Under the pieces are notes generated by a model. The model worked only from the letters and a program-made list of their open reading frames with translations. It did no database searches and was not told where the DNA came from. Made by a program: the position numbers and the translations under genes. Positions 4,613 through 18,386 of a stretch of 64,000 nucleotides of DNA are shown one piece after another. This stretch comes from a virus, in IMG/VR virus record IMGVR_UViG_3300027709_000056, positions 1 to 64,000 of that record; one strand, given 5' to 3'. The stretch's first letter is position 1, and each line of letters opens with the position of its first letter.

Positions 4613-7600
4613 TTAATTTCCAATACCCTCGTTAGCAATCGCATCGTAATATCCTTCGGGGTCTTCATATAGTTCTTGGTTAGCTAACATACCTGCTGAT
4701 ATACCATTAGCAAAAAATGCCTGTGCTAATGGAACTCCGCTTATGCCACCTGTAAATTTCATAAGTACTGGAATATCAATAGCTAATCCAGCCGTATTCC
4801 CAATTTGATTTAGATTATGCAATTTAATAGTACCTGCTAAAACGGCGTTAGCGGCTACATTTGAACCACCTCCGCTAATTCTACTTGTTATGTAAGATGC
4901 AACTGCTCTTTGTGTTGGTACAATGTTATTTGAATTTGCAACAAATGTTATTTCTTTTGAAAATTCTCTAATAACTGCTTGTGTACCACCTACAATAATA
5001 GCACCTAAACGTAATTCTGATAATCCTTGTAAGTCAAACTGTGAAGCATTAATTGTTACAATACCCGTGCTTTGTTCAACTTTAAATAGTTCACCAACTC
5101 TAAAGTTACCGTCTTGGTCAGTTGATGTATAAAATACCCGTCCTCCACTAAATTCCATAGTTTCATTTTGCTGTTCTGGTGGGTAAACTGATGAATATCC
5201 TTCTTTATATAAATCAGGATAATTTGAAGTAGTAGTTGTACCAGTACCAACATCTAAGAAATCGTGTCCAGTTAATCTAACCTGACTATAATTTTGTCTA
5301 ATAATCATATCTTCTTCATTTACTGGTGATTCTTGAATTCCCATAGTTGGTGCAAGAGAAATTTTTGCAACAATATTTGGTGCAACTCCACTTAATGTTT
5401 CTACAGAACCAACTTTATAAATTACATCATTAATACTTGCAAATGTTAAGTTGTCACCTGGTCCTGGTAATAAAGTTAAATCTTTAACAATAAAATGTAA
5501 ACCAGTTTGGAACTGATCAGCAAAGCCGTCTCCAGTAATTGTAACAGCATTAAATTTCGTATAACCACCACCTCTATTTTTAAAGGAAGGTTGTGCTAGA
5601 CATCCGTTATTAACTCTTACATCTATTGTTACGTCTTCTGTTTTTTGTGTATCATAAACATATACAGTTGGAGGTGTATCTTTAATATATCCACTGCCGG
5701 GTTCTGTTATTAAGAATTTGTCAATTCTACCTGTATCAATATTTGCTCTCATTTTTGCTACAGCACCAAATCTTATATTCTGATAGTTTGGTCCTGCTGA
5801 AGTACTAACTAATCCCCAGCCTGGGCCAGACTCTGTTGTATAACCTCTAACGTTTGTATGATATGTATCACTTGGTAAATCAGTTTGCTCTTCCCATACA
5901 TGACCACCTTCACCAGTTACTATATCTCCGCCATCTCTCACAGCAAGAAATACTCCGTCTTGGTAATCAATATACCACGCTGTAGTAGTTAATGAAGTTG
6001 ATGGAGTTTCTGATTCATACCATACTGAACTAGTTGCGCCAGTTGAAAAATCTGTAAAGCTAAAGAAGAACGTTGATGATAATCCAAACGTTGCACTTGT
6101 AGTTGATGTTCCATCACTAATCATTGTAGTTGAAGGATCTAAATCTCCACCTACTGAAAATGTTCCATTTGGCATACAAGCGGCTACAAATTTATTGTTA
6201 CCCCAAGTAAACCCTGTAACGTCATACGTTGATGGACAAACATTATTTCCTGCTACCCAAGTTGCTCCGTTATCAACACTTTGCATACAAGTACCATTAG
6301 CTCTAACTATCATCCACTTACCATTACCGTAAGCAATCCATTTAAATCCTACAGCACCGCCAGTAGCTATACCTGTCCAAGTTGTTCCATCTGTTGTAGT
6401 TTTTTGTACTGTTGCAGAATCATCTGCAATTGCAATCACTGTATGACTTGTAGAATTGTGTGGTCCTTCACAAATATCAATATAGTTTGCTGATGTTATA
6501 GTATATGGTGCTGATGCCCATGCTGTTCCTGCCGTTGACAAGTTTACTTTTGCACCATTACCTAAAGAGATATAATATTTTAATTTACCTTTACATTTTA
6601 ATACACAATTTGGAGTAATCCAACTACCATCAGTTGTCGCTGTACTCCAACTAGAACCTGTTAAGTTTGAATAAACTGCATTTTCACTAGTACTAGGAAA
6701 CGCTACTAAAGTACTTCCGTGTCCAGATGTACATTTAAACGTTGGTGCAGTTAGTCCAGTATTAAGTTCAGTAACTGAATACCCAGGACTAGCAACTTTA
6801 ACTCTTGGTTCAATTCTATAAGTTGTTGTTCCGTCTAATACAGTTGCTATTGTCCAACCTGGAACAATATGATCCCAACCACGTTTTCCATCACTTTCTC
6901 TAATTACGTTAATAAGTTTTGTTCCAGGATAATACTCATCTACAATAGCGTATTGTCCTCTACCTTTACCTTGTTCTAAATAAATTCTTTGTCCTTCAGT
7001 TACAGTTGCAACTCTAAACGTTACATTAGGTACGCCGCCAACATTACCAAGGTTAACATTAGAAACTGTAATTGTATCTCCAACTCTGTGACTGTGACTT
7101 CCGTCTAATGGTGTAATTGAACTTATTCCACCACCACCATCAACAACAATTTGAAATGCTTGTTGTGGAATATATCCACGACCGTTTGTGGTTGCTGGAA
7201 CAATATTATATGTTCCTTCTGGTCTACTTGGATCAGCCGCCGAAATAGTATCAAATGTTAAGAAAGCTCTTCCGGCATATTCTGCCGCAGTATTAATATC
7301 TGATTGAGCAATAGTAATTGAAATAGTTGTACCACTTTGTGCAGAATTTCTTATTCCACTTGTATGTCCTCTACCACCAGGTAAACTTGAATCACCTGGA
7401 TCTAATAATCTAATTTCACTAATACTACCATTTCTTACATCGGTATATGTGTTATCAACAGCAACATCTAATCCTGAGCCAGTTATATTGTGTTGTGCAT
7501 TAATATAATCTTGTCCTGTATGTGTATATCCTATAGCAAAAATATTATCTGCATTATTGTAAACTTCAGGAGCAGTTGCTTGATAATATTGATTGTGTGC

Positions 7601-16210: not shown

Positions 16211-16245
16211 CCATTACTAGTTAATTCAATCCTAAAAACTAGTTA

Positions 16246-16795: not shown

Positions 16796-16803
16796 TATTT
16801 ATC
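16796..16803 (-). promoter_or_regulatory. T4-type late promoter (GATAAATA)
   Basis: Minus-strand TTGATAAATATACGAG directly after the U-tract of the terminator at 16811-16844; serves the 156-aa MGRP gene with a leader of about 75 bases that contains a small GGGG/CCCC hairpin (around 16749-16762). Confidence 0.8.
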
Positions 16804-16810
16804 AAGAGAA

Positions 16811-16844
16811 AGCCCAGAACAGCGTTTAATAGCCATTCTGGGCT
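16811..16844 (-). terminator. Intrinsic terminator of the ncRNA unit
   Basis: 9-bp stem AGCCCAGAA/TTCTGGGCT with a 16-base loop, followed on the minus strand by TTCTCTTG. No protein gene lies between this terminator and the gp23 terminator upstream, so it appears to end a non-coding transcript. Confidence 0.8.
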
Positions 16845-17077
16845 CGACTCATTAAATTTATAGTGGAAAAGGTAGGACTTGGTTACACCTACAATCCCGC
16901 CTCACAGATACCTATCTATTGTTGCGGAAAACCTGCACCCGACTGGTAAGTCGATTTGGATAAGCGCCTTTCAGCTACCCACCCTGGGTACCACCCCTGT
17001 ACAGTCAAGTTCGCCCCTCTGGTAAGAAGCTCTTCCTTGCACAATTCCTACTTAAACAGAGCTACCGTCTAAGTATT
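16811..17077 (-). ncRNA. Candidate structured phage ncRNA between gp23 and the MGRP gene
   Basis: About 265 bases with no plausible gene, clearly richer in G and C than its surroundings. It is bounded by a host-like promoter (17084-17111) and an intrinsic terminator (16811-16844). A long-range stem joins 17042-17053 to 16872-16881 (GTAGGAATTG with CAAGTCCTAC, one mismatch). Inside are hairpins TCGACT-TACC-AGTCGG, ATAGAT-AGGT-ATCTGT and AGGAA-GAGC-TTCTT. Each extends by a G-U pair only if read on the minus strand (C-A mismatches on plus), supporting that strand. It lacks the GTTCRA T-arm of tRNA or tmRNA and the conserved motifs of RNase P RNA. Family not recognised. Confidence 0.65.
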
Positions 17078-17083
17078 ATATGT

Positions 17084-17111
17084 ATAATAACATCTTATAT
17101 GATAAAGTCAA
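17084..17111 (-). promoter_or_regulatory. Host-like (sigma70-type) promoter for the ncRNA
   Basis: Minus strand: TTGACT (17106-17111), 16-base spacer, TATTAT (17084-17089); a second TATAAT lies at 17075-17080. The -35 with its flank, TTGACTTTAT, is identical to that of the gp55 promoter at 35852-35880. Not a late-type box, so this RNA is probably made before or independently of late transcription. Confidence 0.65.
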
Positions 17112-17210: not shown

Positions 17211-18386
17211 TTAAGAGAATGTTACGTTTGTTACAGCTACTCTTCCTAAGTAGTCAGCCGCATTACCAAGAGATGATGCTGTGTTGTTTAACTCAACATA
17301 ACCGTATCTTGACATGAAACTTACTACTGGTTCGAAAGATGCTGGATCCAACACAACACCGCTTGACATCAATGGGATGTATGGGCAGTAAAATGCTGGT
17401 GCATCTGACTCTGAAGTACCTTTGTAACCAACAAGCACATCACTTGCCGCAACGCCTGTATCAGCCGCATATGAATCAACATATACTTTCATTGCACCAT
17501 TTAGTGTTCCTACAAATTTAGTATTTGTTGGAGCTTCAAAAGTGCCTTCAGTTGTTCTTGCGAACGCTGAAGTTGTTGCTGATTGTAGTACAGTTAGTGC
17601 GTGTGGTGAAACCACAGCCCAGTTACCTGCGCCACGACGTGTGCGTTGAGCAATAGTATTTGCAACACGGTTGACCATTACAGCCAAAGCCGCGTGTTCG
17701 TCACCGACGAATGTTGCAGTACCTGATACGCCAGTTTGACTATAAGTCAACTGAGCCGCACCTGCTAATGCACGTAAAGAAGCAAGAACTTCTTGATCAA
17801 TTTCAGCAGTAATTTCTTGGGCTAATGCCGCCATAATTTCTGCTTCGATGTCAATTCCTTGCTGTGCTTGAGCATCTTGAGCCGCTTCAAAAGTCCAGCG
17901 AGCTGATAGCTTTCTGGTTTTTGCTTCGACTGTTTGCTTTAAGATCTGGATACTTAATTTGTTTCCAGGCAATCCTTCTAGTCCCGCTGTAGCGGCACCG
18001 GCTGGAGTTGCATCAGCGGCGTTACCTGAATAAGCCGCGGCAATCTTAAATGGTGAAAGTGCTTCTTCACCGACTTCATTACCATCAGATGCTGATGCAT
18101 AACGAACTCTTAATGTGTGGATTTGACCCACTGGACCTGTCATAGGCTGTACCCCAACTAATTCGTTGGCGATAACGGTTGGCATAACACGTCGTATTAC
18201 TGGTAGGATAACTCTGTTAAGAGTTGCAACATTACCGGCAGACGTAGCGCCTGCTCCTGCAGTCTCATTCAACCACTTGCGTGTGTTTTCAAGAGTACTT
18301 GCCATTACTGCTTTTTTGTTGCCTTGAAGGCCTTCTAAAAGAGCGGTTTTGGTATCCTGCCAGCGATTTTCTAGTAGTTCTGACAT
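17211..18386 (-). CDS. 23: Major capsid protein gp23
   Basis: T4 gp23-type HK97-fold capsid protein that builds the head hexamers. Recognised from its N-terminal half (TLENTRKWLNETAGAG, then PVIRRVMPTVIANELVGVQP and MTGPVGQIHTLRVRY) and its C-terminal VSFMSRYGYVELNN region. At 391 aa it is shorter than T4 gp23 (521 aa), mostly by lacking insertion domain sequence. An L-x-E site (LNE at 39-41; also LLE at 16-18) could be the gp21 processing site. Preceded by AAGGAGAAAAC and by gp22, as in T4; followed by a strong terminator. No gp24 vertex homologue is visible in this window. Confidence 0.95.
   Translation of the reverse strand: MSELLENRWQDTKTALLEGLQGNKKAVMASTLENTRKWLNETAGAGATSAGNVATLNRVILPVIRRVMPTVIANELVGVQPMTGPVGQIHTLRVRYASASDGNEVGEEALSPFKIAAAYSGNAADATPAGAATAGLEGLPGNKLSIQILKQTVEAKTRKLSARWTFEAAQDAQAQQGIDIEAEIMAALAQEITAEIDQEVLASLRALAGAAQLTYSQTGVSGTATFVGDEHAALAVMVNRVANTIAQRTRRGAGNWAVVSPHALTVLQSATTSAFARTTEGTFEAPTNTKFVGTLNGAMKVYVDSYAADTGVAASDVLVGYKGTSESDAPAFYCPYIPLMSSGVVLDPASFEPVVSFMSRYGYVELNNTASSLGNAADYLGRVAVTNVTFS

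Follow-up and report, generated by a model that had tools for sequence, protein, structure and literature searches.

What lies between the major capsid gene gp23 and the next late gene of a T4-like marine phage, where no protein-coding gene is apparent? The 64,000-nt stretch of viral DNA analysed here (the window; part of the 199,810-base IMG/VR virus record IMGVR_UViG_3300027709_000056) carries on its minus strand, in this order, the prohead protease gene, a 368-aa open reading frame (ORF) that occupies the place of the scaffold gene between prohead protease and gp23, gp23 itself, the interval in question and an ORF beginning MGRPINKRYF (the MGRP ORF). A first-pass annotation made from the letters alone had proposed that the interval encodes a structured non-coding RNA set between two late genes. 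The layout bears this out: the region that it delimited, 16811–17111, runs exactly from promoter to terminator, with gp23 upstream and the MGRP ORF, which has its own late promoter, downstream (Table 1). The locus thus raises the question of which RNA this is, and whether it controls the gene behind it or stands as a gene of its own.

A divergent member of the manA family

A covariance search with Infernal against Rfam 15 identified the window RNA as manA RNA (RF01745; 60.6 bits against a curated cut-off of 55.2; E = 5.6e-13), with a match that covers the model in full (positions 1–192). Core manA members score 155–195 bits, and the window RNA is a divergent member of this known family. It shares with the published motif its helices, its queried pseudoknot and its occurrence in T4-like marine phages (PMC2864571). 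However, the gp23 of the window phage points to a jumbo-type T4-like lineage, different from the cyanophages that carry core manA.

The manA RNA was described in 2010 by Weinberg et al. from marine metagenomes, cyanophages and two gamma-proteobacteria, and was labelled a cis-regulatory 5′UTR element and probable riboswitch, with a question mark against the pseudoknot (PMC2864571). A cyanophage paper of 2023 describes its regulatory role as still to be verified (PMC9964418). Since that description it has remained an orphan riboswitch candidate, and we found no report of a ligand in the open-licence PubMed Central literature.

Other identities were rejected. As the annotation had suggested, the RNA is not a tRNA, tmRNA or RNase P RNA: neither ARAGORN nor Rfam found a tRNA or tmRNA in the window, and RNase P RNA and the large ornate RNAs (GOLLD, ROOL and IMES) gave no Rfam match. 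A protein gene is ruled out because ORFs on either strand reach at most 48–52 aa, the sequence covaries as an RNA, and homologues show pair-preserving substitutions and indels that would shift the reading frame. In P-HM1, P-HM2, P-SSM4 and S-SSM5, annotated small hypothetical proteins (PHM1_121, PHM2_011, PSSM4_169.1 and SSSM5_127) overlap manA RNA (L445:1752–1928, L444:1856–1960, L451:1842–2015 and L453:1805–2011) and are probably spurious.

Table 1. Features of the manA locus in the window (positions of the 64,000-nt stretch)
Feature	Position	Strand	Evidence
gp23 (major capsid protein, 391 aa), upstream of the manA RNA	17211..18386	-	PHROG 138 major head protein, E 2.4e-100
gp23 intrinsic terminator, 13 bp, 4-base loop	17156..17185	-	Terminator scan
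Sigma70-type promoter TTGACT-16-TATTAT with TG before the -10 (extended -10)	17084..17111	-	Promoter scan, 10/12; conserved spacing in relatives
manA RNA (RF01745)	16862..17075	-	Full length, model 1-192, 60.6 bits; covariation
Pseudoknot strand 1, UGGUA within hairpin loop GGUGGUA	16989..16993	-	Loop-loop complementarity co-varies between clades, 0/2000 permutations
Pseudoknot strand 2, UACCA loop, partner of 16989-16993	16944..16948	-	Same covariation test of loop-loop complementarity
Intrinsic terminator behind the manA RNA: hairpin of 13 bp with an 8-base loop, tail UUCUCUU	16811..16844	-	Sequence; counterparts in 47/76 listed relatives
T4-type late promoter of the MGRP ORF, -10 box GATAAATA	16796..16803	-	Sequence; NATAAATA before freshwater-2 in 29/30 loci
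Freshwater-2 RNA-like leader (RF02980), ends at start codon	16714..16783	-	49.6 bits vs cut-off 49.9
Downstream late ORF MGRPINKRYF..., 156 aa	16246..16716	-	ORF list; cluster of 49 homologues

A covarying fold with a loop–loop pseudoknot

The structured strand is the minus strand. Its 301 nt fold at −102.6 kcal/mol (z = −4.1; 0 of 100 shuffles as stable), compared with only −71.4 kcal/mol (z = −1.6) for the plus strand. The annotation had pointed to stems that gain G–U pairs when read on the minus strand, and such pairs are indeed common there: the window forms 45 of the 47 family pairs, ten of them as G–U. Among 38 relatives of the window subfamily, two-sided changes occur at 35 of 48 predicted pairs. 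For the named 51-pair structure, 96.1% of cells are paired, 37 of the 51 pairs show two-sided changes, and the covariation score is 0.534 versus 0.173 when shuffled, a value reached in 0 of 500 shuffles; it collapses once partners are slid by one column. This family covariation rules out a chance fold. The RNA is therefore structured as the annotation said, but its picture of a long stem closing several hairpins has to be corrected, the core being a multi-helix fold with a loop–loop pseudoknot.

The pseudoknot joins the GGUGGUA loop to a second hairpin loop, and the two are complementary in register-shifted ways across clades (UGGUA/UACCA in the window, and GGUA/UACC, UGUC/GACA and GUG/CAC). 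Because the register differs between clades, a single-register count of the pseudoknot stands at 72%. Complementarity is 3.25 for a loop with its own partner versus 2.78 for permuted partners, and since own partners did better in all 2,000 permutations, the comparison supports the pseudoknot that the original description had marked as questionable. Many relatives also add to RF01745 as described an outer helix (AUAAGC/GCUUAU and co-varying versions) that joins the predicted 5′ end to the 3′ end of the RNA, and this helix too covaries (0 of 500 shuffles).

A host-type promoter aimed at the first helix

Loci were gathered from viral contigs by short core patterns, giving samples of at least 120 window-type and at least 70 Rfam-core-type loci; removal of near-duplicates left 63 Rfam-core loci and, once further gp23-neighbour loci had been added to the window type, 76 window-type loci, so that 139 were listed in total. 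Promoters and terminators were sought by consensus scans and judged by family-wide enrichment, with counts that kinship among the loci inflates.

Taken alone, the window promoter is at chance level (4 sites found, 3.8 expected); it is convincing because nearly all relatives hold the same promoter at the same distance. A sigma70 promoter is aimed at the first helix of the RNA in 132 of the 139 listed non-redundant marine-phage manA loci, against about 23 expected. Window-type loci carry a promoter scoring at least 9/12 within 90 nt upstream in 72 of the 76 listed, where dinucleotide shuffles would give 15.7; the score reaches 10 or more in 69 loci, and the extended −10 TG is present in 58. The −10 ends 40–42 nt before the core in 54 of these 72 loci and mostly 32–36 nt before it in the remainder. 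Rfam-core loci have a promoter in 60 of the 63 listed (7.5 expected), with the −10 ending 24 nt before the core in half, and the remaining three carry TTGACA and a TATAAA −10. An outer helix of at least six pairs is present in 41 loci, and in 25 of them the helix opens 6 nt downstream of the −10, with the predicted +1 as its first base. The first paired base is therefore the most probable transcription start; in the window promoter, the start is expected near 17077.

The annotation had also proposed a host-like promoter used by unmodified host polymerase, and conservation over the 139 listed loci supports this proposal for the predicted transcript. In cyanophage loci including L453:1733–1770 and L445:1746–1783, the manA −35 TTGACA falls within the loop of the hairpin that terminates the upstream gene (AAGAGGGTGCTTGACACCCTCTTTTTTTATGCTATAAT), so that terminator and promoter are fused.

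Termination and the question of attenuation

The generic terminator scan found the gp23 terminator, which would shield the RNA gene from capsid transcription, yet missed the one that the annotation had placed behind the RNA. The relatives bear out the latter: an intrinsic terminator lies within 110 nt in 47 of the 76 listed window-type loci (2.4 expected), 14–32 nt after the RNA core and in 44 of the 47 at 14–20 nt. In 35 of these 47 loci, a NATAAATA late promoter stands no more than 60 nt further on. The U-tract in the window is interrupted (UUCUCUU), so termination there may be partial. Whereas RF01745 is filed as a 5′UTR cis-regulator, for which no terminator should intervene, the terminator and the late promoter separate manA from the next gene in the window, and this member is a promoter–RNA–terminator unit.

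In 41 pairs of loci, the manA RNAs are 93–99% identical and the terminator hairpins unrelated. Complementarity between the 3′ part of manA and the terminator 5′ arm is −8.76 for own and −8.80 for swapped partners, and the window-type loci with a terminator give no signal of an attenuator with a shared antiterminator. Attenuation is thus unsupported, because terminators vary while the RNA stays the same. Among Rfam-core loci, a terminator was detected in only 9 of the 63 listed (1.6 expected). There manA often runs into another gene, which is gp32 in 13 loci, transaldolase in 5, a phosphomannomutase-like gene in 4 and thyX in 2, and many loci have the next gene within 15–80 nt, leader-like. In cyanophages where manA runs into gp32 or metabolic genes, the RNA may have a leader role.

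One copy per genome and varied surroundings

Each of 40 distinct positive records holds exactly one manA copy: the window's record, 15 records from the search among relatives (including Mosig), 12 cyanophage genomes and 12 more. Many viral contigs are fragments, so the main support for a single copy comes from 13 isolate or reference phage genomes.

The surroundings were surveyed with mechanical ORF calls. In the window's clade and in the cyanophages P-HM1, MED4-213, metaG-MbCM1, S-SSM5 and P-RSM4, manA directly follows gp23; elsewhere it lies before gp32 (P-HM2), at regA/purL (P-SSM2), after pstS (P-SSM3 and P-SSM4), in the nrdB/transaldolase region (P-RSM6 and P-TIM68), after ferredoxin (P-SSM7) or before rubrerythrin (Mosig). 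In P-HM2 the RNA maps to 4771–4969 of GU075905, and in P-SSM2 to 142837–143034 of AY939844. The next gene is oppositely oriented in P-TIM68, L240, L216 and L218. Relatives can do without manA at the gp23 site: 15 of 50 have it and 35, among them contigs of 150–215 kb, have none; six isolate gp23 relatives, four of them jumbo T4-likes, carry no manA. BLASTN of the window-type RNA against isolate phages found manA only in Pelagibacter phage Mosig. Scanning genome_contigs with the core 16-mer gave 75 hits, about the chance expectation, one of which passed the 3′-end filter and the Rfam check. This is a core-type manA on a Prochlorococcus single-cell genome contig (L404:2633–2820; QCLS01000003.1), which may be a phage genome sequenced along with the cell.

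Other RNA elements occur near manA. Glutamine riboswitch (glnA) motifs lie within a few hundred bases in several loci (L308:1194–1242 and 1707–1802, L263:312–360, and L232:1164–1210). Phage contigs L131, L216 and L218 hold alphaproteobacterial-type tmRNA genes nearby, which points to SAR11-like hosts, and in Mosig a tmRNA is annotated some 3 kb away from manA. As for the host of the window phage, psbA and alpha-type tmRNA are both absent from the 199,810-base record, and in a gp32 search the control genomes themselves gave no match.

A probable separate leader for the downstream late gene

The MGRP ORF has no match in Pfam or PHROG. The leader in front of it resembles freshwater-2 RNA (RF02980), with three hairpins and an end at the start codon, and is an element separate from manA RNA. 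Its score in the window falls 0.3 bits under the curated cut-off, and syntenic relatives reach up to 76.6 bits; 42 of 50 relatives have a match at E ≤ 0.001, which nearly always follows gp23. Freshwater-2 almost always stands between a T4-type late box and an MGRP ORF; the NATAAATA box lies 7–19 nt upstream of it in 29 of 30 loci (L098–L127). This makes freshwater-2 the probable 5′ leader of the late mRNA that comes after gp23, and in the window the mRNA of the late gene would begin after the manA terminator. We found no earlier report of a link between freshwater-2 and the T4-type late promoter in the open-licence PubMed Central literature.

The gap from gp23 to freshwater-2 (17211–16716 in the window; L001–L080) is a hypervariable slot. 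When empty it measures about 170 nt up to the MGRP start codon; when filled it carries manA, cargo genes (S-adenosylmethionine decarboxylase, for example) or both. At 16243–16182, a sub-threshold match to sar RNA (31.5 bits against a cut-off of 43) lies over the terminator hairpin after the MGRP ORF; being weak and overlapping that hairpin, it was set aside.

Discussion

We consider it fairly probable that the window RNA is a divergent, free-standing manA: a single-copy phage RNA gene that is made by host polymerase, terminated and most likely trans-acting. Its fold, pseudoknot, promoter, terminator, copy number and insulation are shown by comparative sequence analysis. In the mechanism that we propose, unmodified host RNA polymerase would start at the sigma70 extended −10 promoter, 7–8 nt before the first helix; the transcript, of about 265 nt, would adopt a compact, pseudoknotted fold in which a helix seals the 5′ end, and synthesis would stop at the intrinsic terminator. 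The capsid and MGRP genes would be transcribed separately, the latter from its late promoter with the freshwater-2 leader. The RNA would most likely act in trans by binding a protein or other cellular component in early to middle infection, a timing suggested by the host type of the promoter, and the gene behind it would not be its control target. Given the conserved junction and pseudoknot, binding to a protein or other specific partner would be likelier than plain antisense pairing.

A cis-acting riboswitch or attenuator, in which metabolite sensing sets read-through from the sigma70 promoter into the downstream gene, would suit the complex conserved fold, and Weinberg et al. rated manA as cis-regulatory and probably a switch (PMC2864571); cyanophage manA, moreover, often precedes gp32, transaldolase, the phosphomannomutase-like gene or thyX with no detected terminator. 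We nevertheless regard this reading as unlikely. Near-identical RNAs are followed by unrelated terminators with no co-adapted antiterminator, each genome has a single copy, and the downstream genes are functionally unrelated and sometimes oppositely oriented; in the window's clade, a late promoter past the terminator serves the downstream gene, which most relatives possess without manA.

The near-universal strong promoter, the sealed 5′ end and the many insertion sites in hypervariable slots could instead mark a mobile cassette of promoter and 5′-protecting leader, the RNA stabilizing or helping to process the mRNA behind it and the terminated copies having decayed or been repurposed. This is more doubtful still: a stabilizing leader requires no conserved pseudoknot, junction or terminator, and the terminated copies covary strongly, which argues that they have not decayed. 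That the interval is an untranscribed spacer, with promoter, terminator and fold present by chance, agrees with the promoter count within the window alone but is refuted by the family-wide covariation, promoter position and terminator enrichment, and we give it a negligible probability.

A free-standing manA RNA gene has familiar counterparts in general plan. Both tmRNA and 6S RNA are present in one copy per genome, with their own sigma70 promoter, their own terminator, a compact fold and no fixed neighbour gene. The manA RNA resembles them in copy number, promoter, terminator, compactness and freedom from any one neighbour, although it has no sequence or structural relationship to them and the window has no Rfam match to either. 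What appears to be new is a dedicated promoter at the first base of the fold across several T4-like lineages, together with a dedicated terminator in a large clade; we found neither in the open-licence PubMed Central literature, and earlier reports elsewhere are possible. Such a promoter and terminator contradict the cis-regulatory label for those manA members. The text of an infection-transcriptome study of Prochlorococcus MED4 with P-HM2 (PMC5082946) does not report the manA region.

For the family as a whole, we see an even chance that manA is generally not a riboswitch leader but a single-copy, autonomous, trans-acting RNA gene, driven by host-type promoters early in infection and shared by T4-like phages whose hosts are cyanobacteria, SAR11-type bacteria and other aquatic bacteria. 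P-HM2 and P-SSM2 are among the cultured phages with manA whose transcriptomes have been profiled, so existing reads allow a direct test of its role. Should manA prove to be an RNA gene of its own in phages that rank among the ocean's most abundant, the search would shift from ligands to partners.
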